Positions 49,771 to 64,000 of a DNA stretch of 64,000 nt are shown here, one piece after another. Positions within the stretch are counted from its first letter, which is position 1. Every line of letters begins with the position of its first letter. The notes under the pieces were generated by a model that worked only from the letters and a program-made list of their open reading frames with translations, did not search any database and was not told where the DNA came from. The position numbers and the translations under genes are program-made. This DNA comes from Cytophagales bacterium WSM2-2 (GTDB lineage Bacteria > Bacteroidota > Bacteroidia > Cytophagales > Cyclobacteriaceae), in assembly GCA_015472025.1 (NCBI GenBank), contig BNHL01000001.1, positions 3,150,001 through 3,214,000 of the forward strand, in the 5' to 3' direction.

Positions 49771-52700
49771 GTGGAAAAACACCCGTTGGATTTTCTGAGC
49801 CCGAACCCTGAAGAACGCAATCAGGTGCTTCTAATGCTTATCACCGGGTTTTTCTTTGGGATTTTCATTGCCACCTACCAGGTAACTGCGGAATCGCTCT
49901 TCCTCAGCCAGATGAGTGAGCGAATTAATGACGCGTTCCTTATTTCGGGAGTATTGGGAATTGTATCCACCTTGATCTTTACTTTTTTTCAAAACAGGAT
50001 CAAATTTGTTACGCTGGCGATCTCAAGTCTTACCGTAATTCTGGCTGTAACCTCAACCTTGTATTACTTTTATCGATTCGGTGATGCAGGTCTTCACGCC
50101 AATGTGCTGCTTGTGATGTATTGCCTCACAGGCCCGATAACGGCTGTTCTGCTGCTGTGTTATTGGGGTATCTTTGGAAGGCTTTTTAATTTCCGACAGT
50201 CCAAGCGAATTATCGGCTGGATTGATACCGGACAGTTAGTCGCCATCATTACGGCCAATTTCTTTGTTCCACTAACAACCGTCTTTTTCAACAATACGAT
50301 CGATTACCTGATCGTATGCAATTTTAGTATTGTCTGCTCTTTGGTCTTTGTTATTATCATCGCTTCACGCTTTGTATTGACTAAAAATAATCCGCGTGAG
50401 TTTGACAGTACGGTAAGACAGGAGACCCGGTTCACAAGCATGTTCCGTGACAAGTATGTTGTACTTCTTGCCTGGTTTCTTATGACGTCCATGGTGACGT
50501 TCATTTTAAATCAGTATTCATTTCAAACACTCCTGAACAAGCAGTATCCCGTGCAACGTGATCTGACCAACTTCATCGGCTATTTCAACGGGGCTATTTA
50601 TTTGTTGAGTCTTGTGATGCAAACATTTGTCAATGACCGACTCATTGGAACTTACGGTATTCGGATTTCGCTGTTCGTACTCCCGGTGATTACAGGGTTA
50701 TTTGCTTTGTGTTCGACTTTGACTGTCTCGTTTTTTGGTTTTTCACTTGAACCGGATTCACAGGCTTTCATTTTCTTTTTCTTATTCGTGGCGCTCACGC
50801 GTTTGTTCAACAGCATGTTGCGCGATTCACTTGAAAACCCAGTGTACAAACTTTTATTTATTCCACTCGACAATCGATACCGTTTTGGCATACAATCGAA
50901 GATCGAAGGTGTGATCAATGAATCGGGGCGGTTTATAGCCGGACTATTGGTTTTTGCCTTCAGCCAATTGCTCTTCTTTAAGTTGTATTGGATACCACTT
51001 CTGGTCATTGCCCTTGGAGGGCTCTACATCTTCGTGGTGCGTAATCTGTACTCCGGCTACAAAGGTAAGATCCGGTCTAAACTAGAGAGTTCTGAATTCC
51101 ATCAGGACAAACTTGAAATAGGTTTTGCGGAGGTGACTTCAACATTGGAAAAACAACTCCTGGATAAAAAAACTTCGAAGGCAATTTTTTCTTTCAAGCT
51201 CCTGGAAAAACTTAACCCATTGAAAGTCGGAGTTTGGGTGAATGAATTGATGAAAAACAGGAGGGAGGAAGCGCAAGACTATGCCCAACGGAGAATGAAT
51301 GAAATGAAGGGGCTCTCGGTTTCTGAGAATTATGTAATCCGGATTAACCGGAAAATGGTAAGTGCCGATGGCAAGAATGTTCTATCATCATTTGATCTTG
51401 ATCAGATGCTGCGAAATGGCGGAGAAATTACCAAGACCCGGCTGCAACGACTTGCTAGGTCGCCCGAACCAGGTGACAGACATTACGCTGCCGAGCTGAT
51501 TTTGCATACTTCCCGTACGGAAAATATCTCTTTCCTCATAGAGCTGTTGAACGATATCGACCCTAAAGTTCGAAGAACTGCAATTGCAACTGCTGCCAAG
51601 CGCTTTAATGGTGAAGTGATTAACACGGTGATTGATAATCTTAATCATCCGCAGTATTCCAACCTCGCTATGAATTCGCTCGCGCTGATGGGTACTGCCG
51701 CTTTGAATCACCTGGACAGTGGCTTCTATCGTTCGGGCCAGAACACTCAAACCATGGTGCGCATCATACAAGTACTTGGGCGGATTGGCGGTCAGCGCGC
51801 AAAGGAATTATTGTGGAATAAAATCGATTATCCGGATAAGGTCATCGTGTCACAAGTGCTGCTGTCATTGGGAGATTGCGGCTTTAAAGCAAGTATTGCA
51901 CAGGTAACTCGTATTAAATACGCCATAGAAACAGATATTGCTGACCTTACCTGGAATCTGAGTGCGATTCGTGAATTGGGCGAATCATCGGCAAGTGAGC
52001 AAGTGCGTATGGCCCTTCGCCAGGAGATAAATCATGATATCGAGCACATCTACATGCTTCTGGCCATGTTGTATGACACCCGTTCGATTCAGCTCGTAAA
52101 AGAAAATATTGAAAGCGGCACTTCCGAGGGTACTACTTATGCTGTGGAGTTGCTGGATGTGTTCCTGTCAGAGCAGCTGAAAATGCGGGTTATTCCAGTA
52201 TTGGATGATCTTAGTGATTCTGAAAAAATTAAGCGCCTTGAAGTCTTTTATCCCCGCGTAAATCTTGACGCTAAACTTACACTTAAGTTCTTGGTTAACA
52301 GAGATTTCACGCAGACTAACCGTTGGACAAAAGCCACTGTAATACATCAGATTGGAGCACAGCGGATCGCAGATTTTACATTGGACCTGATCGCCCAGTT
52401 GTTCAACCCTGATCGTCTCGTACGCGAAGTTGCTGCCTGGGCTTTGCACGAAGTTGATGCGAACCTGTATCATGAAAATTCGAGAAGATTGGATGAAGAC
52501 CAAAAGCGTTGGTTGGACAGAGCGATACTTAAAAACCAGAATGAAACTGCGCTGACGTTGTACGAAAAAGCTTCTTTCTTCCTGAATATCAGCGTGTTTT
52601 ACGGAATCCCTGGACTCACACTGTCTTATCTCGCAGACGTATCAAAAGAACTGAAATTGAAGGAAGGTGAGCATCTTTCTATTGATGAAAGGCTGAACAA

Positions 52701-52935
52701 TGATTTTTTCATCATTTACAGCGGGTCCGTTCAGTACTTTGAAGGAGGCCGGTATGTGACTGATTTTAACAAAGGACAGTTTGTGGGGGAAATGCTTTCA
52801 TCACCTGGCTTTGTTAATACCAACTTGCTGGTAGCCAAGGAGCAGACACTCATGTTGAAATTCAATAAAGACCAGTTTTACGAGCTGCTCTCCGATAATG
52901 TCAAACTGGCGGACAAATTTTTGCAGTTTATTTGA
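49771..52935 (+). CDS. NTT/MFS-like transporter fused to HEAT repeats and a cyclic-nucleotide-binding domain
   Basis: A 1054-residue protein starting at GTG. About residues 1-430 form roughly 12 membrane helices of the ATP/ADP translocase-MFS type (for example LLMLITGFFFGIFIATYQVT and AVLLLCYWGIFGRLFNFRQS). Residues about 560-900 are HEAT repeats (RSPEPGDRHYAAELILH, DIDPKVRRTAIATAAKR, DRLVREVAAWALHEVD). The last 120 are a cNMP-binding beta roll (FFIIYSGSVQYFEGG, then GQFVGEML). NTT-HEAT fusions are known in free-living bacteria (recalled). The cNMP roll could gate transport of a nucleotide-like solute. The usual PBC Arg is not obvious, so cNMP binding itself is uncertain. Confidence 0.82.
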   Translation: MEKHPLDFLSPNPEERNQVLLMLITGFFFGIFIATYQVTAESLFLSQMSERINDAFLISGVLGIVSTLIFTFFQNRIKFVTLAISSLTVILAVTSTLYYFYRFGDAGLHANVLLVMYCLTGPITAVLLLCYWGIFGRLFNFRQSKRIIGWIDTGQLVAIITANFFVPLTTVFFNNTIDYLIVCNFSIVCSLVFVIIIASRFVLTKNNPREFDSTVRQETRFTSMFRDKYVVLLAWFLMTSMVTFILNQYSFQTLLNKQYPVQRDLTNFIGYFNGAIYLLSLVMQTFVNDRLIGTYGIRISLFVLPVITGLFALCSTLTVSFFGFSLEPDSQAFIFFFLFVALTRLFNSMLRDSLENPVYKLLFIPLDNRYRFGIQSKIEGVINESGRFIAGLLVFAFSQLLFFKLYWIPLLVIALGGLYIFVVRNLYSGYKGKIRSKLESSEFHQDKLEIGFAEVTSTLEKQLLDKKTSKAIFSFKLLEKLNPLKVGVWVNELMKNRREEAQDYAQRRMNEMKGLSVSENYVIRINRKMVSADGKNVLSSFDLDQMLRNGGEITKTRLQRLARSPEPGDRHYAAELILHTSRTENISFLIELLNDIDPKVRRTAIATAAKRFNGEVINTVIDNLNHPQYSNLAMNSLALMGTAALNHLDSGFYRSGQNTQTMVRIIQVLGRIGGQRAKELLWNKIDYPDKVIVSQVLLSLGDCGFKASIAQVTRIKYAIETDIADLTWNLSAIRELGESSASEQVRMALRQEINHDIEHIYMLLAMLYDTRSIQLVKENIESGTSEGTTYAVELLDVFLSEQLKMRVIPVLDDLSDSEKIKRLEVFYPRVNLDAKLTLKFLVNRDFTQTNRWTKATVIHQIGAQRIADFTLDLIAQLFNPDRLVREVAAWALHEVDANLYHENSRRLDEDQKRWLDRAILKNQNETALTLYEKASFFLNISVFYGIPGLTLSYLADVSKELKLKEGEHLSIDERLNNDFFIIYSGSVQYFEGGRYVTDFNKGQFVGEMLSSPGFVNTNLLVAKEQTLMLKFNKDQFYELLSDNVKLADKFLQFI

Positions 52936-53060: not shown

Positions 53061-56000
53061 ATGCTAAATTCACCTGTCAAAGTTGGCGTGATAGATGAAT
53101 CGGACTCAGCTAGGGTATACCCTGAGTCTCGAATTGGCATTAATCCGTTCCCGGGGCTACGACCATTTACATTGGAAGAGTGTTTTCTCTTCTTTGGTCG
53201 CGAAGGTCAAGTAGACGATATCCTCCTTAAGCTTTCAATAAGTCGCTCGGTTACTGTCATGGGTTACTCCGGTAGCGGTAAATCAAGCTTGATGTTTTGC
53301 GGTCTCCTCCCCGTTTTGTACGGAGGTTTCATGACCGATACTGGTCCCTTTTGGGGAATTTTAACTGCAAGACCTGGGAATTCACCGATCGGTAATCTTG
53401 CCGAATCGATTTTAAACTTTCTTCTGCAATCCAAGCGTATTGAAGAGGACGACAAACATATTCACAGGGCTATTATTAACTCTGTTTTGCGCAGTGGACC
53501 AAATGGATTGATAGAAATAGCCCGGTTCGTTCAAACCAATGAGAATGAAAATATTTTTCTGCTGATCGACCAGTTCGAGGAGCTCTTTCGCTATTCTGAA
53601 GGAGGTAGTGATGATTATCGAAATGAAGCCACAGCGTATGTAAATCTCATCCTCACGGCAATAGGGCAGAAACAGGTGCCTGTTTATGTCGCATTGAACA
53701 TGCGGTCAGATTTTATTGGAGATTGTTCACAGTTCCAGGGGTTGACAGAGATGATCAATGCAAGCAACTACCTGGTTCCGCAATTGACTCGCGAGCAAAA
53801 ACGCATGGCCATTGAAGGTCCGGTGGCGGTGAGTGGATCCAGAATTTCATCACGACTGGTTAAGCGACTGCTGAGTGATATTGGAGACAACCAGGATCAA
53901 CTTCCCATTTTGCAGCATGCGATGATGCGTACATGGGAATACTGGGAAAACAATCACGATCCCGGTGAACCCATTGACCTGAGGCATTACAATTCCATTG
54001 GAAAAATTGATCAGGCTCTTTCGCTTCACGCAAATGAAGCTTACGAAGAGTTGACACCCCGGCAAAAGGAGATTGCAGAAATTCTATTTAAAAGCATTAC
54101 TGAAAAAAATCAGGATAATCAGGGCATGCGCAGGCCTGCCAAAGTTGGTCTGGTTGCAGAGCTTTCAGATGCACAGGAGAGTGAAGTAATTGAAGTTGTA
54201 GAGAGCTTCCGAAAGCCGGGCCGTTCGTTCATCATGCCGGGAGCGCATATCGCCTTGAACGCAGATTCTTTAATTGAGATATCTCACGAAAGTTTAATGC
54301 GTATCTGGACCAGGCTTTCAACCTGGGTAGATGAAGAGTACGAGTCAGCGCACATGTACAAGCGTGTGTCCGATGCTTCAGCCATGTACCAGATCGGCCG
54401 AACCAGCTTGTGGAGGCCACCGGATTTACAACTGGCGCTCAACTGGCAGAAAAAACAAAGACCTTCCCGCACTTGGGCGCAACGCTATGATGTTGCTTTT
54501 GAACGTGCTATTGTATTCCTCGACACGAGCCGCATCACGTATGAGGCTGAGTTGAAGAACCAGGAGATGTTGCAGCGAAGGATGCTTCGCAGGGCAAGAG
54601 CAACAAATATTGTGCTGGCAGCTTTCCTCATTGTAGCTATTGCATTTTTCCTTTTCGGTTTGATAAAAAGTATTCAAGCTGACAAGAACCGCATTGAGTC
54701 CGATATTCAAAGAGACAAAGCCGAAAAGGCAAATGCTCAAGCCCAGAAGTCGGCACAGCTGGCTGAGGCGCGGGCCAATGATGTGATCAACAAACAGGAA
54801 GAATTAGCGAAGCAACGTGACCAATTGGCCGAGACCAACAAATCGTTGTCTACTTCCTTCAGGAAAAATGACAGCCTTCTCAGGGTTGCTCAACGCAGTT
54901 ATGAAGAAGCGGTAGCTCAGCAAAAATATGCGGAGTTGAAAAGTGAGATTGCAGACTTCGAAACTAACCGTGCCGACAGCCTTGCTGCAGATGTGGAGGC
55001 TCGTCTGATGTTGTCTATTGCGCAGTCGCTGGAAGTAAAATCAAAAAGTATAGATGATAAAAATCTGGCGGGTAATGCTGCTTTGCAAGGCTATGCTTTC
55101 CATACCCGTTACAACGGAAAAAAATATGACCCTTATGTTTTTCAGGGATTGTACTATGCATTAACGAAACTTTCAGGTAACAATTACAATGCGGTGAAAA
55201 TGCCGGGCAACTACAAGAGTAAAATGTTTGCACTGGCCGTCTCTCAGAAGACATCGAGTTTTTTCACAACCGGAAATGATGGCCGCATTTTTAAAGGCGA
55301 CTTCATGTCGCAGAAAGTAGACAGGGTGGTCAACGAGAAGAAATTTCCTAATCGGGTTTTAGCCTTGAGCAGAGATGAAAAGTATCTGGTGAATGGAAGT
55401 GACTCCAGTTACGTGGAAATTTTCTCATTGGACAACCCGGCAGCAGGACCTAGACTGGTGTTGGGTCATCGGGGAGTGATTACGGATGTTAAATTCTTGC
55501 CGGATGGTTCGGGCTTCATCTCATCTTCAGCAGACAGAACATTGAGGTTGACAAATCACATCAGTGGTGAATCAAAACAAATTGTTGCGCTTCCCTATGA
55601 TATTAAATCAATCGACATCAGTTCAGATGGTAGGTCATTGGTAGCGGGTTCACCTTCCGGGAAAGTGATCCTTGTGAATTTGCGTGATTATTCTGTCAAA
55701 GAATTAAGGGACGAATCTCCGAACCGGGTTTTGTCAGTTGCCTTTCACCCGACACGTCAGCTTATCGCTTATGGTGTGGAGGCAGTGGCCGAGCGAAAAG
55801 GAACTGTGAAACTCTTTAACCTCGCTAGCATGAAAATTGACCGCGAGTTGGGGGGGCACAGGGCGGGTATTTCCGATGTTGAATTCAGCCCCGATGGCTT
55901 GTTGCTGGCGAGTGCCGGCCTTGACCGCAAACTGCAGATGTGGGTGGTGGATCGCGTAGATGATTTGCCGGTGGAAATGGACAACAATAACGGCTACGTC

Positions 56001-56207
56001 TGGGATTTAGCCTTCTCCAAAGAATCAAATTACCTGATCGCTTCTTGCAATGACGGAGAAATCAGGATATGGCCAACGGATCCGAAAATTCTGGCAGACC
56101 AGATTTGCCCCAAGCTTGACAGGAATATGACTGCGGAAGAGTGGAATATTTATGTCGGTAGTAGTATTCCATATGAGCAGACGTGCAAAACTATACCGGT
56201 AAAATGA
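53061..56207 (+). CDS. Transmembrane STAND NTPase with coiled coil and WD40 propeller
   Basis: A 1048-residue protein. The nSTAND-type ATPase (about residues 28-480) begins NPFPGLRPFTLEECFLFFGR, with Walker A GYSGSGKSS (68-76) and Walker B FLLIDQFEELF (about 172-182). A basic cluster (RRMLRRARA) precedes one membrane helix (about 517-538), so the NTPase should be cytoplasmic and the rest periplasmic. A Lys/Glu/Ala-rich coiled coil (about 540-650) leads to WD40-type repeats (about 720-1030; LGHRGVITDVKFLPDG, GHRAGISDVEFSPDGLLLAS). STAND proteins act as ligand-triggered switches. The stop overlaps the next gene by four bases. Confidence 0.88.
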   Translation: MLNSPVKVGVIDESDSARVYPESRIGINPFPGLRPFTLEECFLFFGREGQVDDILLKLSISRSVTVMGYSGSGKSSLMFCGLLPVLYGGFMTDTGPFWGILTARPGNSPIGNLAESILNFLLQSKRIEEDDKHIHRAIINSVLRSGPNGLIEIARFVQTNENENIFLLIDQFEELFRYSEGGSDDYRNEATAYVNLILTAIGQKQVPVYVALNMRSDFIGDCSQFQGLTEMINASNYLVPQLTREQKRMAIEGPVAVSGSRISSRLVKRLLSDIGDNQDQLPILQHAMMRTWEYWENNHDPGEPIDLRHYNSIGKIDQALSLHANEAYEELTPRQKEIAEILFKSITEKNQDNQGMRRPAKVGLVAELSDAQESEVIEVVESFRKPGRSFIMPGAHIALNADSLIEISHESLMRIWTRLSTWVDEEYESAHMYKRVSDASAMYQIGRTSLWRPPDLQLALNWQKKQRPSRTWAQRYDVAFERAIVFLDTSRITYEAELKNQEMLQRRMLRRARATNIVLAAFLIVAIAFFLFGLIKSIQADKNRIESDIQRDKAEKANAQAQKSAQLAEARANDVINKQEELAKQRDQLAETNKSLSTSFRKNDSLLRVAQRSYEEAVAQQKYAELKSEIADFETNRADSLAADVEARLMLSIAQSLEVKSKSIDDKNLAGNAALQGYAFHTRYNGKKYDPYVFQGLYYALTKLSGNNYNAVKMPGNYKSKMFALAVSQKTSSFFTTGNDGRIFKGDFMSQKVDRVVNEKKFPNRVLALSRDEKYLVNGSDSSYVEIFSLDNPAAGPRLVLGHRGVITDVKFLPDGSGFISSSADRTLRLTNHISGESKQIVALPYDIKSIDISSDGRSLVAGSPSGKVILVNLRDYSVKELRDESPNRVLSVAFHPTRQLIAYGVEAVAERKGTVKLFNLASMKIDRELGGHRAGISDVEFSPDGLLLASAGLDRKLQMWVVDRVDDLPVEMDNNNGYVWDLAFSKESNYLIASCNDGEIRIWPTDPKILADQICPKLDRNMTAEEWNIYVGSSIPYEQTCKTIPVK

Positions 56208-57310
56208 TGGTTCGGATTCTACTGATTTTTTTATTCGCATCAATCACCGTACAGCTGTTCAGTCAGAGTAAAGACTGTGAGCAGACGTTGAATAGTGCTG
56301 CAGCAGAATTTGATGCGGGCCGCTTTTATGGCTTGCCTTCTTTGCTCAAGCCATGTCTCGACAAAGGATTTTCCCAAGAGCAAAAAGTGCGCGCTTATCT
56401 TTTGCTGACTCAGGCTTACTTAATTCTGGACGATCCAATCGCTGCAGAGACCAGCTACCTTCAATTGTTGAAAGCCGATCCCGAGTATGTCGCAAATCCT
56501 GCACGTGATCCGGTAGATGTTTACTATTTGAGTAAGCGATTCATCACTACTCCGGTTTTTACACCCAATTTTCTTCTGGGAGTAAATACGTCTTTACCAC
56601 GTCCCATTTTTTCATTAAACACGAGCAGCACGCAGACACAACGCACTGAGGAAAATGTGCTCAAGCTTGGCTATCAGGTTGGCGGTACAATTGATTGGAA
56701 CCTGAATGAGCGCTGGAGTATTGGAATCGGATTGCAGTATTCGAAAAAGACATTCAAATCGGTAGCTCAAAATAGTGATGAAGGAACCCATCTCGAATTC
56801 ACTGAGAAGCAAGACTGGATCGATCTTCCCTTGTATGTGAAATATTCACATGACTCCGGTGCGTTCAGGCCGTTTGTGTATACCGGGATTTCGGCCAACT
56901 TTTTAATAGGCTCCAAGCTTGCACCAGACGGTGTCGACCTGAACTCACCGAGTCCGCCACAGCAACAGATTTGGCAGGGACCGGACATCGATATTCTTTA
57001 TAAAAGAAATATGCTGAACCGGTCATTAGTGCTGGGGGGTGGTTTTAAATATAAGGTGAGCAAGAATTTTTTGTTCCTCGATGTGCGCTATATGGGCGGG
57101 TTGAATAATATCGTCAAGAACCCCTACACCACGTCTGACGGGAAACTTGACAAGCTGCTAACGAACTATGAGTACTCCTCCGATTTTTTCAGAATTGATA
57201 ACCTGTCTTTATCGGTAGGGTTTATTAAACCATTGTACGATCCGCGAAAAAGAAAACCAGTAGTAACGGGGTTATTGCAAAAACTGGGACTTAAAAAGGC
57301 TAAGAAATGA
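56204..57310 (+). CDS. Outer-membrane beta-barrel protein with N-terminal helical-repeat domain
   Basis: A 368-residue protein. The start is the ATG at 56204, overlapping the STAND stop (ATGA); seven more codons are open upstream. A signal peptide (about residues 1-21) is followed by a TPR-like helical part (about 25-110; TLNSAAAEFDAGRFYGLPSL, VRAYLLLTQAYLILDDPIAA). A PorT-like barrel (about 130-350) ends in a basic tail. The N-terminal part is periplasmic, and so could face the WD40 propeller of its neighbour. Its stop overlaps the next ATG by four bases. Confidence 0.75.
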   Translation: MMVRILLIFLFASITVQLFSQSKDCEQTLNSAAAEFDAGRFYGLPSLLKPCLDKGFSQEQKVRAYLLLTQAYLILDDPIAAETSYLQLLKADPEYVANPARDPVDVYYLSKRFITTPVFTPNFLLGVNTSLPRPIFSLNTSSTQTQRTEENVLKLGYQVGGTIDWNLNERWSIGIGLQYSKKTFKSVAQNSDEGTHLEFTEKQDWIDLPLYVKYSHDSGAFRPFVYTGISANFLIGSKLAPDGVDLNSPSPPQQQIWQGPDIDILYKRNMLNRSLVLGGGFKYKVSKNFLFLDVRYMGGLNNIVKNPYTTSDGKLDKLLTNYEYSSDFFRIDNLSLSVGFIKPLYDPRKRKPVVTGLLQKLGLKKAKK

Positions 57311-58578
57311 GGGGGCGTAAACTGTTTTTTGGACTGTTGATTTTTGTCGTTGCATGCGATACAGCTTCGAATATTCCTTCTCCATCCAAAAGCTATTTTA
57401 TTAAATATTTCGGAGGGGACGGAAATCAGACTGCAGTAGACTTGATTGTAAACCCGGATGGCACATTTTATATCCTTGGGAATTCTGTGCGGTCAGCAGG
57501 AGTGAACCAACGGGTTTATCTGGCCAAAGCGGATGCACAGGGAAGACTATTGTGGCAAAGAACTTATGGCGATCCGGCTATTAAAATGGAGGCGCGCGAT
57601 TTTGAGTTGACGTCAGACGGTAAGCTAGCCGTGGTAGCGAATAAATTTACAACATCTGCGAATGCTGATATCCTCTTAAGTCGCTTCACGCTTGATGGTA
57701 ATGCCATCGACAGTGTACTCTTGCAATTAGAATCGCTACCGGCTCCGAAGAATGAATTTGCAAATTCGTTGACCGAATTAAATGATGGCGGCTTCCTGGT
57801 GACCGGCTATACCGACTACTCCAGCGATCCTTCCCACCAATGGGACGAATTACATTTAAGAACAGACAAGAATTTGCGACAATTGCTCACGGCTACAGAT
57901 ATCTGGAAAGAGACTACCGGTTCGGGAACGACTAATAAGGGAGTGAAATCATTTCAGACCAAAGCCGGGAAAATCTATGTATTTGGAATGACCAATGCCG
58001 CTGCCATTGATATGAACTTTTGGAACTTCGGACTTGATGCTAATGGTGCTCCTTCGGGAAATTCAGACGTTTCATCTGAATTTGTAGTAAATGGTTCTAA
58101 CGAGATAGTGACTAGCGTTTTCAAATCGCCGGTGAATGGTTATGTGATGTCAGGGATTATGACTGACCCCGCAAGCCAAACGATGACCATGTACCTGAAG
58201 AAGATCAGGTTCGACAACCCGGTCTTCGATCAGAGTGATATACAATTCAGTTATAGTTCGGCAACAGGTGCACTAGGCAAAGGCGCAACACCTTTCGTGA
58301 CAGCATGTGTCGGTTCAAGCGGGTATTATGTATTGGCTAACACCTACAATAACCCAAGCGGATTCAGCGATATGATGCTTTTAAAGTTGGATGACACTTT
58401 TCAAGGGAGTGGCGATCCTGTGATTTTGGGTGGGGACGGAGAGGATATGGCCGCAGCTGTGTCGGAGCTGCCAGACGGAAGAATTGTTGTGCTGGGTACG
58501 ATGAATATCGGGACCCCTGCAGAACAATTTAAAATTGTGCTAATGAAGCTCAATTCCAGCGGAAAACTAACCGATTAA
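57307..58578 (+). CDS. Lipoprotein with propeller-like repeats
   Basis: A 423-residue lipoprotein (FVVACD lipobox, Cys at about 17). The body repeats a pattern of D-G-x-[FLI]-x-[VIL]-x-[GA]-x(n)-[DN]-[IM]-x-L-x-[KR]-[LFI] (for example NPDGTFYILGNS, LNDGGFLVTGY, SSGYYVLANTY, LPDGRIVVLGT), typical of secreted beta-propellers (delta-60 or SBBP-like). The ATG overlaps the stop of the barrel gene. It is the third gene of the coupled set and probably sits on the outer membrane. No enzyme motif is visible. Confidence 0.75.
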   Translation: MRGRKLFFGLLIFVVACDTASNIPSPSKSYFIKYFGGDGNQTAVDLIVNPDGTFYILGNSVRSAGVNQRVYLAKADAQGRLLWQRTYGDPAIKMEARDFELTSDGKLAVVANKFTTSANADILLSRFTLDGNAIDSVLLQLESLPAPKNEFANSLTELNDGGFLVTGYTDYSSDPSHQWDELHLRTDKNLRQLLTATDIWKETTGSGTTNKGVKSFQTKAGKIYVFGMTNAAAIDMNFWNFGLDANGAPSGNSDVSSEFVVNGSNEIVTSVFKSPVNGYVMSGIMTDPASQTMTMYLKKIRFDNPVFDQSDIQFSYSSATGALGKGATPFVTACVGSSGYYVLANTYNNPSGFSDMMLLKLDDTFQGSGDPVILGGDGEDMAAAVSELPDGRIVVLGTMNIGTPAEQFKIVLMKLNSSGKLTD

Positions 58579-58656: not shown

Positions 58657-61600
58657 ATGATTGTCCAAAAAACTCATTTTGGAGGGGGTAATCTCCCTTT
58701 GAGGTCAACTTCAGAGTCAATTTTGTTGATTTTAAAAATTGCTGATTTGAAGGTTTTTTATTCATCTCATCAGGCGAAAGGTTCTTATAGGCTAAATGCA
58801 TTTTTTGCCTTCCTTTCTCTATTCTTTGCATTTGGATATACATCTGCTCAAACTACTATTACATCTGGAAACACAGTCAATGCCAGTACAATTACTGCTG
58901 GAAATACTATTACCATACAAAATGGTGGTACTCTTAATATGGATGTTGCAAGGTCTTTTACATCCATCACGACCAATACAACGGGAGCGGGGGTTTGCGC
59001 GGTTACAGGAGCCAATACACTTACACTAAGCGGAGCCCTAACCATAACTGCTTCGACATCTATTGCTTTCAGTACAAACCTTACAGGTACATCATTTAAC
59101 TTTGGCGCTACTTCTTCAACTACTTCTACATTAACAGTTAATTTAGGCAAGACATTAACTTTTTCTGGTGCGGGCACAATTAATAGTGCCGTAGCAAATA
59201 ATGTTGATGCAGTTATTACAGGAGCAGGCGCTATTTCGGTGGCGTCAATTGCCCTTGGAACGAACATAACTCCAACAAGCAATCAGACAACTACACTTAC
59301 ATCGTCCATTTCCAGCTTAACCGTAACCGGAAGTATAACAGTTAGAACTGATAGTAATTCTCCAACGGCCCTGAATAATGCGACCTTCAACCATCAAAGC
59401 GGTGCAGTAGCAATAACTACTTCATTAGTTACAAGTTTTACAGGTACCAATCCTACATCCACGATAGCTACTTACGATATGTCATCGGGTGTTGGGTCTG
59501 GGACACTGACTTTTAATGGCGCTACTCCGTTTACAACAGCCGGTGGTGGGACAAACAATATCATATTTAACGGAAGCTCGTCAACGGTGTCATACAATCG
59601 TGCCGGAGTCCAGACAGTCTTCAATGTCAATTATACTAATCTGACTCTATCTAATAGTGGAGTAAAGACGCTTCAGGTAGGAACGACTACTATTGGAGGT
59701 GCTCTCACACTGTCGGGTACAGCATCTGCAACTGCAGTTATTGGCTTATCTATCGGATCTGTTACAATTGGTGGCGGAACTACTTTTAGTGGTGCGACTT
59801 TCAGTCATTCGGTGAGTGGAGACTGGACTAACAACGGAGGAACCTTTACATCAGCAACAAGTACGGTAACATTCAACGGAACTGGTCCACAAGCAATCAC
59901 TGGTACTTCGCCAACACAGACGTTCAATAATATTATAGTGAGTAAAACTGCTGGCCAGACTCTTTCTGTCGGTGGAAGCACTACTACGCTAAATGTTGCT
60001 AACCTTACTCAAACAACCGGAAACTTTACAGCCCCAACCACACTTGCGGCTACCGGCAATCTGTCGATTTCATCTGATACATATACGGCTGGTACCAACA
60101 CTAATATTGGTGGAAATTTTGCTCTTACCGGAGGTGCATTCGCCCCCGGAGCTGGCACAGTTACATTCAACAAGGCAGCGGGAACCCAGACATTAAATTC
60201 AGGCGGTGCGTCATTCAATAATATTTCACACACTGGCGCTGGAACTCTACAGTTGTCAACTAATTCTTTGGCAACTGGAGGAACATTCACCACCTCTGCG
60301 GGAAGCTTTGACGCTAATGGATTGAGTAGCACAGTTACCGGACTTACCACAGTAAGCGGAGGAACTTATTTGAGCTCAACTGCTACTCAAACATTCAATG
60401 GCGGGTTGACAATCTCGGGAGGAACATTTACAGGTTCGACCGGAGCAGTAACAAGTACGAACGTAACATTGACCTCGGGTACAATGACTGCTCCTTCTGG
60501 AACATTTAGCGTATCTGGAAACTGGTCAAGATCTGCAGCTACATTCACCCCAGGTGCAAATACAGTGACTTTCACTGGTTCAGGGACTCAGACTTTAAAT
60601 TCAGGCGGCTCTTCATTCAACAACATTTCGCACACAGGCTCTGGGACGCTGCAATTGATAACAAATTCGCTGACTACCGGAGGTACCTTTACAAACTCAG
60701 CAGGTACCTTCGATGCAAATTCATTAAGTAACACAGTTACAGGACTGGCCACAATAAGTGGGGGAATTTATTCGGCCTCAACAGCCCTTCAAACCTTTAA
60801 TGGAGGACTGACAATTTCTGGCGGAACATTTACCGGGTCAACGGGAGATGTAGCCACAGTCAATCTGACTCTAAGTAGTGGTACGTTAACTGCTCCATCG
60901 GGAGTATTTAATGTCTCCGGTAATTGGTCAAAGACCGCTGGAACATTTACTCCGGGAGGAAATACAGTGACGTTCACCTCTTCAGCAACGCAAACACTAA
61001 ACTCTGGCGGAAGCTCATTCAATAATATTTCCCATTCGGGAACAGGTACACTGCAATTACTTACCAATTCATTGACAACCGGAGGAACGTTCACCAATTC
61101 AAACGGAACTTTCGATGCGAACGGATTAAGCAATACAGTGACCGGTCTTACAACAGTCAGTGTTGGTACCTATCTGGCATCAACTGCACTTCAGACATTT
61201 AACGGTGGTTTGACAATCTCCGGTGGAACATTTACCGGATCAACCGGTGGTGTAACCACAACAGGACTAACGTTGAGTTCGGGGACGTTGACAGCGCCTT
61301 CAGGAGTATTTAATGTTTCAGGTAATTGGTCACAAACCGGAGGCACTTTTACTCCGGGTGCTAATACTGTCACATTCACAGGTGGAAGCGCACAAACCTT
61401 AAATTCCGGAGGATCATCCTTTGGAAATATTTCACATACCGGTGCAGGTACTTTACAATTGTTGACCAATTCCCTGGCAATAAACGGAACCTTTACAAAC
61501 GCCAGCTCAGCGGGAGATTTTAACACCAATGGGTTAAGCACCACAGTTACGGGACTTACAACACTGAGTGGGGGAAATTATTTAGCATCCACGGCACTTC

Positions 61601-64000
61601 AAACATTCAATGGCGGTCTCACCATTTCAGGTGGAACATTTGCAGGATCAACTGGTCCGATTACAACTACGGATGTTACCTTGAGTAGCGGCACATTAAC
61701 CGCACCATCAGGAACATTTAGTGTCTCGGGAAATTGGTCACAAAGCGGAGGAACGTTTGCCCCCGGAACAAATACAGTAACATTTACAAAACCATCGGGT
61801 ACCCAAACCTTTAATTCAGGTGGTTCATCATTCGGAAACATAGCTCATTCAGGTAGCGGTACATTGCAACTGACCACTTCTTCGTTGACTACTGGAGGAT
61901 CTTTTACTAATTCTTCCGGAATATTTGATGCGAATGGACAGGCACATACAGTCACTGGTCTGGCTACAATTAGCAGTGGAACTTACCTTGCTTCAACGGC
62001 ATCTCAAACCTTCAATGGAGGTGTGGCGATTTCGGGTGGAGGAATTTTTACGGGATCGACTGGAGACATAAACATTAATGGTAATCTTTCTATTGGCAAT
62101 GCTTCATCATTGTCAATCGCTGGCTCTAATTTTTCAATCACCGGATTGTCATTAATTGGAGGTGGCTCTACAGGAACACTTTCAATTACATCTTCAACTG
62201 GCACCAAAACTTTTGGAGGCCTAGTGTCGCTTTCTGCGGGTGCAACCTGGGACAACAACGGCAATTCTGATGTTACTTTTCAAGGCGGTATTTCAAGAAG
62301 TACAGGTACTTTCAATGCAGGAGCGGGGGTACACACCTTTGATACAAACTCTCAATCCTTAACGGGTTCTTTTTCTATTCCTAAAGTTACCGTGACTGGG
62401 GTTTCATTGACTAACAATACTGGTCTTACAGTTGCTAGTGCATTGAGCGGAACGGGTAGTTTTATTCAGAGTAATAACGCCACCCTTGTCATTTCCGGGA
62501 CATCGGGGATAGCTTCGATGAGCGCGAGTAGCAATGGCAACGCGGTAACCTTTAACGGGACATTGCCGCAGACAATTAATTCAAGTACTTATAATAATTT
62601 AACCATTTCACAATCAGGTGGCAATGCTTCTTTGGGAGGCAGCACAACGGTTAATGGCTCACTCACTATTTCTTTAGGTAATGTTGACCTTGGGGCTAAT
62701 GACCTGACCATTGGTTCTGGTGGAAGTATTACAGGTTCAAGAATTATTATCTCTGGAGCTGGTACTTTGAAGAAAATTTTTACTGCAACAGGAGTTCCAT
62801 TTACTTTCCCGATTGGAGATGTAACGTTGTACACACCGGTTATTGTTAATGTTACGGGCGGATCATTTAGCTCATCTTATACAGTTGGTGCTTCAGTCAC
62901 CGATTTGAAGCACCCTTCGAATGCAAGTACTACCGATTTTCTGTCACGGTATTGGACAATCACACAATCAGGAGTCACGGGAGCTGTCGCAACAATCACG
63001 GGTACATATGATGTTGCTGGTGATGTGACCGGCAGCGAAGCGAATATTGTAGCGGCCGGATTGAATGGCACATTTAATCAAACTTCAAATCCATGGGTAA
63101 AATTGGCCGTTGGAGCTTTGCCTGCGGGTGGCCCTCTGACAGCGACAGGAGCTGTTCTTACTAACGGGCAGCCTTCTTATTTTACAGGAGTGCAGAACGC
63201 TACACTTATCGCATCGGCAGGTACAGATAAAAATGTTTGTACTTCCGGAACAGCGACTTTAGGTGGTACTCCTACTGCTTCGGGAGGTACAGGTGGATAT
63301 GTTTATTCATGGACACCTTCAACAGGTCTAAGCGCGACAAACATAGCTAACCCCGTCTTTACTGCGCCTGGTGTTGCCAGCGGTCCAACATCTTACATGG
63401 TTACAGTTACTGACGCCAATGGCTTTTCAGCGACTAGCTCAGTAAACGTCACAGTAATTGCATACCCAGTGATCAGCCAGTTGCCGTTATCGCAGACGAA
63501 GTGTTTTGGTAGCGGAGCGAGCTTCAGTGTTACAGCGAGCGGCACGAGTCTGAGTTACCAGTGGTTCCGTGGAGCTACCCCGATCGGTGCAGGCACGGAC
63601 GGAGGAGTGTATACGGGTTTTGCCACTTCGGTATTGAACATCAGCAGTGTTAACGGATTGAACGGGAACCAGTACAGCGTGGTGGTTACGGAGACGACCG
63701 CTCCGGGTTGTGCGCTGAGTGCCACGGGAGCGGTTACGCTGACGGTGGAGTCATTGCCGACGGGTAGCCTGAGTGTGGGCGGTGGATCCGGGGTGAGTGT
63801 TTGTTCGGGTAGCAGTGCGAGCCTGACGTTCACGCTGACGGGCACAGGTCCCTATGATGTAGACTATACGGACGGGACGAGTACGTTCACGTTGAATAAT
63901 ATAGCAAGCGGTTCGGGTGTAAGTGTTAGTCCATCGGTTACGAAGACGTATACGATCACCCGTGTGAAAGACAATGGTACGAGTGGAGGTTGCCTTGGTA
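58657..64000 (+). CDS. Giant repetitive surface protein (adhesin-like), 3' end outside window
   Basis: Open for at least 1781 codons with no stop, cut by the window end. The ATG at 58657 gives a long leader whose hydrophobic signal core (LNAFFAFLSLFFAFGYTSAQ, about residues 47-66) lies unusually far in; a TTG at 58747 would give a normal 35-residue signal. Then come Ser/Thr/Gly/Asn-rich beta-solenoid-like repeats, including four tandem units of about 134-136 residues. From about residue 1520 there are PKD-like and Ig-like domains (ASAGTDKNVCTSGTATLGGT; YQWFRGATPIGAG). This resembles large type IX-secreted adhesins; the sorting signal would be beyond the window. Confidence 0.85.
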   Translation, partial: MIVQKTHFGGGNLPLRSTSESILLILKIADLKVFYSSHQAKGSYRLNAFFAFLSLFFAFGYTSAQTTITSGNTVNASTITAGNTITIQNGGTLNMDVARSFTSITTNTTGAGVCAVTGANTLTLSGALTITASTSIAFSTNLTGTSFNFGATSSTTSTLTVNLGKTLTFSGAGTINSAVANNVDAVITGAGAISVASIALGTNITPTSNQTTTLTSSISSLTVTGSITVRTDSNSPTALNNATFNHQSGAVAITTSLVTSFTGTNPTSTIATYDMSSGVGSGTLTFNGATPFTTAGGGTNNIIFNGSSSTVSYNRAGVQTVFNVNYTNLTLSNSGVKTLQVGTTTIGGALTLSGTASATAVIGLSIGSVTIGGGTTFSGATFSHSVSGDWTNNGGTFTSATSTVTFNGTGPQAITGTSPTQTFNNIIVSKTAGQTLSVGGSTTTLNVANLTQTTGNFTAPTTLAATGNLSISSDTYTAGTNTNIGGNFALTGGAFAPGAGTVTFNKAAGTQTLNSGGASFNNISHTGAGTLQLSTNSLATGGTFTTSAGSFDANGLSSTVTGLTTVSGGTYLSSTATQTFNGGLTISGGTFTGSTGAVTSTNVTLTSGTMTAPSGTFSVSGNWSRSAATFTPGANTVTFTGSGTQTLNSGGSSFNNISHTGSGTLQLITNSLTTGGTFTNSAGTFDANSLSNTVTGLATISGGIYSASTALQTFNGGLTISGGTFTGSTGDVATVNLTLSSGTLTAPSGVFNVSGNWSKTAGTFTPGGNTVTFTSSATQTLNSGGSSFNNISHSGTGTLQLLTNSLTTGGTFTNSNGTFDANGLSNTVTGLTTVSVGTYLASTALQTFNGGLTISGGTFTGSTGGVTTTGLTLSSGTLTAPSGVFNVSGNWSQTGGTFTPGANTVTFTGGSAQTLNSGGSSFGNISHTGAGTLQLLTNSLAINGTFTNASSAGDFNTNGLSTTVTGLTTLSGGNYLASTALQTFNGGLTISGGTFAGSTGPITTTDVTLSSGTLTAPSGTFSVSGNWSQSGGTFAPGTNTVTFTKPSGTQTFNSGGSSFGNIAHSGSGTLQLTTSSLTTGGSFTNSSGIFDANGQAHTVTGLATISSGTYLASTASQTFNGGVAISGGGIFTGSTGDININGNLSIGNASSLSIAGSNFSITGLSLIGGGSTGTLSITSSTGTKTFGGLVSLSAGATWDNNGNSDVTFQGGISRSTGTFNAGAGVHTFDTNSQSLTGSFSIPKVTVTGVSLTNNTGLTVASALSGTGSFIQSNNATLVISGTSGIASMSASSNGNAVTFNGTLPQTINSSTYNNLTISQSGGNASLGGSTTVNGSLTISLGNVDLGANDLTIGSGGSITGSRIIISGAGTLKKIFTATGVPFTFPIGDVTLYTPVIVNVTGGSFSSSYTVGASVTDLKHPSNASTTDFLSRYWTITQSGVTGAVATITGTYDVAGDVTGSEANIVAAGLNGTFNQTSNPWVKLAVGALPAGGPLTATGAVLTNGQPSYFTGVQNATLIASAGTDKNVCTSGTATLGGTPTASGGTGGYVYSWTPSTGLSATNIANPVFTAPGVASGPTSYMVTVTDANGFSATSSVNVTVIAYPVISQLPLSQTKCFGSGASFSVTASGTSLSYQWFRGATPIGAGTDGGVYTGFATSVLNISSVNGLNGNQYSVVVTETTAPGCALSATGAVTLTVESLPTGSLSVGGGSGVSVCSGSSASLTFTLTGTGPYDVDYTDGTSTFTLNNIASGSGVSVSPSVTKTYTITRVKDNGTSGGCLG
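60391..62007 (+). repeat. Four tandem 402-408 bp coding repeats
   Basis: Units start at 60391, 60793, 61195 and 61603, with the next partial one at 62008. Each encodes about 134-136 residues with FNGGLTISGGTF, TAPSG, VSGNWS, TPGANTVTFT, LNSGGSSF, GTLQLLTNSL and VTGLTT landmarks. A diverged half unit precedes them (about 60000-60390). Bases have drifted more than residues. Confidence 0.88.

Follow-up and report, generated by a model that had tools for sequence, protein, structure and literature searches.

How could a STAND ATPase, a type of switch best known from cytoplasmic receptors of immunity and cell death, come to be encoded together with proteins of the outer membrane and cell surface, and what might such an assembly do? 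The question is raised by a locus of Cytophagales bacterium WSM2-2 (Bacteroidota; Cyclobacteriaceae; GCA_015472025.1) in the 64,000 nucleotides between positions 3,150,001 and 3,214,000 of contig BNHL01000001.1, the whole stretch that we analysed (hereafter the window; coordinates are window positions unless stated otherwise). Three genes on the plus strand encode an nSTAND1 NTPase with a single transmembrane helix, a coiled coil and a WD40 propeller (53061-56207, 1048 aa), an outer-membrane protein (OMP) with a tetratricopeptide repeat (TPR)-like domain and a barrel (56204-57310, 368 aa from the ATG at 56204), and a beta-propeller lipoprotein (57307-58578, 423 aa). A preliminary description had proposed this trio as a translation-coupled envelope system, and its open reading frames, its domains and both ATGA overlaps are present: the stop codon of the STAND gene overlaps the OMP start at 56204-56207 (within GTAAAATGATGG) and the stop codon of the OMP gene overlaps the lipoprotein start at 57307-57310 (within AAGAAATGAGGG). 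The unit is larger than the trio, however, as it also includes an upstream gene for a membrane protein with an ADP/ATP-carrier/MFS-like N-terminus, HEAT repeats and a C-terminal CNB-like (cyclic nucleotide-binding) domain (49771-52935, plus strand, 1054 aa), and a downstream gene for a giant surface protein sorted by the type IX secretion system (T9SS), which starts at 58657. We lean towards reading the whole as a trans-envelope receptor with a STAND switch at its core.

The N-terminal part of the STAND protein (residues 29-444) matches the Pfam family nSTAND1 (PF20703) with 292 bits against a cut-off of 27 (E-value 1e-86) and carries a Walker A motif at residues 68-75 and DQFEE at 170-174. 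Among 108 non-redundant STAND loci, the Walker A pattern is found in 104 homologues and [DE]QFEE in 107. The window protein has only one hydrophobic segment, at residues 517-535 (54609-54665, plus strand; hydrophobicity peak 3.14), with five Lys or Arg in the 15 residues before it and three after it. All 108 homologues, those from other phyla included, have a single strongly hydrophobic segment that separates the NTPase from the propeller, flanked on average by 5.9 such residues before and 2.5 after, and the preceding side is the richer one in 107 proteins. By the positive-inside rule, the NTPase is predicted to lie in the cytoplasm and the propeller (approximately residues 700-1010, 55158-56090, plus strand; Pfam and PDB matches) in the periplasm in these 107 homologues. 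The outward-facing WD40 part envisaged in the preliminary description is thus upheld, while its remark on STAND NTPases as normally soluble switches goes too far here, given a transmembrane segment in all 108 relatives examined. A Cys pair near the C-terminus of 88 of the 108 proteins is compatible with an oxidising compartment for the propeller side.

The domain calls for the two partner proteins hold as well. The OMP has a signal peptide and matches OMP_b-brl_2 (PF13568, E-value 3e-15), and its AlphaFold2 model (pLDDT 92; structures were predicted as single chains) shows a helical TPR-like N-terminal domain followed by an eight-stranded barrel that Foldseek places with OmpA/OmpW/OmpX-like barrels. 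An assignment to PorP/SprF or PorT was rejected, with no match to PorP/SprF and only sub-threshold ones to PorT/PorG. The lipoprotein has its lipobox Cys at residue 17, a residue shared by all 43 homologues, a delta_60 repeat was matched with an E-value of 8e-12, below its curated cut-off, and the model is a propeller (pLDDT 85, pTM 0.87). Its top Foldseek match, CylK, was read as likeness of propeller fold only, and an enzymatic role was rejected.

Are these genes a functional unit at all? In a survey of 118 genomes of the family, the STAND gene was found in 70 (59%) and the OMP gene in 66; both occur in 66 genomes, STAND alone in four, OMP alone in none and neither in 48 (Fisher's test, 9e-29). 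The conserved tail module of the giant occurs in 71 of these genomes, 68 of which also encode the STAND protein (2e-26). The genes are neighbours too: 90 of 96 OMP matches in the family genomes lie directly downstream of a STAND match, and across the 108 loci the OMP or its TPR domain is encoded by the gene after STAND in 97, the lipoprotein comes next in 83, and the gene for the HEAT-CNB protein is at most two genes upstream in 66. The third gene downstream of STAND encodes at least 1,090 aa in 25 of the 26 cases where it is complete on its contig, many contigs stopping inside the repeats of the giants. Conservation extends well beyond close relatives, contrary to the outcome by which the preliminary description would have been refuted, the matches listed including loci in Cytophagales, Bacteroidales, Chitinophagales, Sphingobacteriales, Acidobacteriota, Cyanobacteriota, Nitrospirota, Desulfobacter and Verrucomicrobiota. 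Adjacency and co-occurrence therefore sustain the proposed connection of a STAND switch with outer-membrane partners, but not the trio as a self-contained whole, as the HEAT-CNB gene and the giant also belong to it. Likewise, the order of the genes is kept but the exact ATGA overlap is not (12 of 91 STAND/OMP and 36 of 83 OMP/lipoprotein junctions, most of the others being at most 20 nt apart), and we rejected ATGA coupling as a hallmark of the system. It might be argued that two independent units merely share a promoter, a STAND protein with a function of its own and a surface operon of OMP, lipoprotein and giant, and one Persicobacter genome (G049) does have its STAND gene approximately 35 kb away from the OMP-lipoprotein-giant set. 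We regard this as very improbable: the genes are adjacent in 97 of 108 loci, which belong to several orders, they co-occur with P < 1e-24, and the TPR domain is also found immediately after STAND on a different type of barrel.

It is this TPR domain (OMP residues 22-112, 56267-56539, plus strand) that appears to hold the system together. Within clade A, to which the window belongs, the mean identity of 14 orthologues to the window proteins was 65% for the TPR domain and 70% for the NTPase, compared with 51% for the propeller, 39% for the tail of the giant, 37% for the barrel of the OMP and 32% for the lipoprotein. The TPR domain is thus about as conserved as the NTPase while barrel, lipoprotein and tail vary, as expected if a fixed inner link serves a changing outer face. 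A profile of the domain matched 122 of 1379 locus proteins at E < 1e-5, all of them at STAND loci and 116 directly after STAND. Six of the matches directly after STAND are proteins of the size of TonB-dependent receptors (approximately 870 residues), which occupy the place of the small OMP (L129, L133, L135, L136, L148 and L156) in Chitinophagales, Sphingobacteriales, other Bacteroidota and one acidobacterial locus. These receptors were outside the set used for building the profile and matched it at 4e-10 to 8e-24, compared with 0.003 or worse for unrelated locus proteins, so generic TPR similarity was rejected as the cause of the likeness. Of three such receptors tested, all have the Plug domain and two the barrel, and the same arrangement of a TPR-bearing TonB receptor after STAND was found in three further whole genomes (G377, G304 and G306; L162-L164).

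The cytoplasmic side varies as well. At two loci (L158:2473-7465 and L159:7666-10914), a TPR protein is encoded after a Ser/Thr kinase that has one transmembrane helix and PEGA domains outside, i.e. the TPR domain keeps company with signalling outputs. A further locus (L157:695-9167) is devoid of the STAND domain and has kept the transmembrane segment, coiled coil and WD40 part before a TPR-TonB receptor. That the TPR domain persists as barrels and even cytoplasmic outputs change is the strongest argument for docking and signalling, and a docking module is the best reading of this domain from sequence comparison. Its importance as the key link, found on two unrelated kinds of barrel and beside Ser/Thr kinases, had escaped the preliminary description. 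Two minor observations concern these loci: the TPR protein of L158 ends in a T9SS-like sorting domain, and at L157 a Reg_prop histidine kinase is encoded two genes beyond the TPR-TonB receptor.

In the receptor that we favour, the T9SS-exported giant and the propeller lipoprotein would be exposed at the cell surface and meet a ligand, a surface or a neighbouring cell, and the small outer-membrane barrel would take up the resulting change from these surface parts. The periplasmic TPR domain of the barrel would then bind the coiled coil or the WD40 propeller of the STAND protein and thereby release the cytoplasmic nSTAND1 domain for ATP binding and ATP-driven oligomerisation under the membrane. 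In relatives, the output would be, or would formerly have been, a TIR-DUF4062 protein. The analysis establishes the architecture of the locus and its conservation; the protein contacts, the direction of information flow, the oligomerisation driven by ATP, the ligand and the output in this scheme are what we infer. A comparable layout is known from FecA-FecR-FecI, where an outer-membrane barrel extended at its N-terminus by a periplasmic domain meets an inner-membrane protein with a C-terminal periplasmic receiver. Both systems share the extra N-terminal periplasmic domain on a barrel and the inner-membrane partner, and some relatives of the window locus even use a TonB-dependent receptor. However, the domain here is TPR instead of STN, the receiver WD40 and coiled coil instead of FecR, and the output module a STAND NTPase instead of a sigma factor; Pfam and NCBIfam searches yielded no match to STN, FecR or ECF sigma factors in the trio, and none in the tested TonB-receptor proteins. 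Tentatively, the loci could even represent a general class of trans-envelope receptors in diderms, though we would not yet put this on a par with the receptor reading itself: an OMP, either a small barrel or a TonB-dependent receptor, would signal by TPR docking to an inner-membrane protein with an exchangeable output (nSTAND1 plus TIR-DUF4062, or a Ser/Thr kinase), an NLR-like switch would thus sense the outside, and the window would hold a form with a giant antenna and a discarded TIR.

What does the giant contribute? Its gene (58657-64000 in the window, plus strand, covering the first 1781 residues; genome positions 3208657-3232026) extends past the window end to 7,789 codons and encodes 32 PKD_5 repeats. 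The protein carries a T9SS type A sorting domain (TIGR04183) with 28.2 bits against a cut-off of 23, and the giant of clade B reaches 40.5 bits with the same model. The genome encodes SprA and is thus that of a T9SS host, and together with the sorting domain this predicts the giant to be a T9SS substrate. Cassette giants, including those of clade B and Bacteroidales, share a tail module of approximately 470 residues before the sorting domain (E-values 1e-99 to 1e-26) despite great differences in length and repeats. The window genome has exactly two copies of the module, one per cassette: the second cassette has a STAND protein (full-length, 42% identical to that of the window), its own OMP and lipoprotein, and a giant of 5,371 residues with a type A sorting domain, plus an extra TIR-DUF4062 gene with a degenerate TIR motif directly before STAND. 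The tail module is also used outside cassettes, with eight copies in genome G022, which has only one STAND, a truncated one. T9SS as such was rejected as the factor deciding on cassette presence, as SprA was found in 114 of the 118 family genomes. As a side note, a weak Omp28-like match lies in the conserved tail just before the sorting domain, both in the continuation of the gene at 58657 (L057:3-14024) and in its paralogue.

The tight association of tail module and STAND gene (together in 68 genomes with five exceptions), the long third downstream genes in 25 of 26 complete cases and the conserved tail amid variable repeats would also fit a machine for assembly or anchoring of the giant. The STAND protein would then be an inner-membrane motor or timer, and once the T9SS has exported the giant, OMP and lipoprotein would receive it, fold it or anchor it, a task that SprF performs for SprB. 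PorP/SprF-type barrels indeed bind T9SS cargo in F. johnsoniae and P. gingivalis (PMC9143113), and the pairs SprF-SprB and PorP-PG1035 resemble our locus in having an outer-membrane barrel gene beside that of a T9SS-exported surface protein, a giant in the case of SprB. However, the barrel here is not of the PorP/SprF type, an inner-membrane STAND protein is added, and the sorting domain is type A, while the described cargo-specific barrels handle type B. Further, an eight-stranded barrel is too narrow for a conduit, STAND and a TPR domain on a TonB-dependent receptor occur without a neighbouring giant at L129 and L148, and outside Bacteroidota STAND is partnered by a TIR protein, something that assembly would not require. 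We therefore consider an assembly machine rather unlikely, but it is the main rival.

The TIR-DUF4062 protein points to the probable origin of the window locus. It is the partner at STAND loci outside Bacteroidota, where it keeps the TIR motif SxWCxxE, and in many relatives its gene lies directly before STAND, a feature that the preliminary description lacked; in the window's clade the gene has been lost. The motif SxWCxxE is kept in eight of ten full-length TIRs at loci without a small barrel but lost in 45 of 45 at small-barrel loci, where the last Glu persists in nine. In the window's STAND clade (33 rows, support 99), the TIR gene is absent throughout, as far as contigs allow, and the window cassette is devoid of both DUF4062 and TIR domains. 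Non-Bacteroidota and TonB-receptor loci together form one clade of the STAND tree (support 99). The most plausible reading is that the window system descends from a TIR-STAND pair, having acquired parts in the outer membrane and at the surface and shed the TIR output. The direction of this change is inferred, since the tree, a quick one with a midpoint root and some long branches, is unrooted. In an alignment of DUF4062, one column that might correspond to the catalytic Glu (E97 of KpSwz) has Gln in 45 of 51 rows, an observation to which we gave no weight. Two of the TonB-receptor loci (L129:6503-8452 and L148:6504-8420) have a gene for 640-650 aa directly before the canonical TIR-DUF4062 gene; that of L129 encodes TrkA_N and RyR-like domains and is possibly a nucleotide-gated output.

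The TIR partner also evokes defence, with surface contact by a phage or rival cell leading to a suicide response triggered by the STAND protein, be it against phages or in self/non-self recognition. DUF4062 is a TIR-like NADase in the phage defence system Swarozyc (PMC13174449, preprint), and nSTAND1 was named from predicted conflict systems (eLife 2021, PMC8195603). Yet no known anti-phage model fits (best PADLOC match at an E-value of 0.046), and the TIR motif is lost in all 45 small-barrel TIRs and the gene in the window's clade. The chromosomal neighbours of the locus are kept across genera, mobile records are few (five plasmid records and one weak phage record match, and we rejected a mobile element), and 59% of the family genomes have the system, unlike patchy mobile defence. 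A defence role is improbable on these grounds.

Comparison with known STAND systems shows what is particular about the locus. With described nSTAND1/STAND NTPases (PF20703; PMC8195603), it shares the NTPase domain, the Walker motifs and a C-terminal WD40 sensor as in APAF-1, but here a membrane helix leads to a periplasmic propeller, partners reside in the outer membrane and at the surface, and the protein itself has no effector domain. Human NWD1 and TEP1 have the layout DUF4062-NACHT-WD40 (PMC13174449), and the parts DUF4062, STAND and WD40 recur in the STAND relatives encoded next to a TIR-DUF4062 gene; in our system, however, the parts are split over two genes and the membrane, the TIR motif is lost with small barrels, and the gene is absent from the window. 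We found no description of the whole assembly in the open-access literature searched. The families of the parts are known, and the assembly stands a fair chance of being a STAND-receptor variant that forms a class of its own.

Several points weigh against the trans-envelope receptor. In the window's clade no effector gene is recognisable, an oddity if the switch serves signalling, and lipoprotein and giant could be cargo or passengers. Further, the identity comparison covers just 14 orthologues within clade A, and from named genomes the 80 best loci of a scan with a query of the small-barrel type were used, so that frequencies are biased towards this type. The best candidate for an output in the window's clade is the carrier-HEAT-CNB protein. 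It matches HEAT_2 (3e-14), cNMP_binding just below its cut-off (3e-6) and MFS_1 (2e-3) in Pfam, and weakly an ADP,ATP carrier and the CNB domains of PKG and PycTIR in the PDB. The region of the phosphate cassette in its CNB domain reads GEMLSSPGFVNTN and is devoid of the usual arginine, which makes ligand binding doubtful.

If the receptor reading is true, a STAND switch with a periplasmic sensor, which conserved gene order ties to an outer-membrane barrel and a giant, also reads the exterior of the cell. Bacteroidota would possess a route for signals from the surface to the cytoplasm that does without a histidine kinase and without the pair of FecR and a sigma factor, and a function would be suggested for giant T9SS proteins, a class with several thousand residues per chain. 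Along the tree, the decaying TIR would provide a natural series from a presumed NADase output to none.

A few features of the window and its relatives complete the picture. Between the HEAT-CNB gene and STAND, TACCTTTG at 52978-52985 matches the Bacteroidota promoter element TAnnTTTG, and the trio may thus have a separate promoter. Minus-strand open reading frames at 58848-63845 were rejected as genes, being shadows of the reading frame of the giant, and no DNA tandem repeats were found in this interval. On the Persicobacter plasmid NZ_AP025294 (L071:17370-18950), where the genes for OMP, lipoprotein and giant are approximately 35 kb distant, STAND and membrane-protein genes adjoin a putative phage-tail-sheath gene, perhaps part of a contractile injection cluster.

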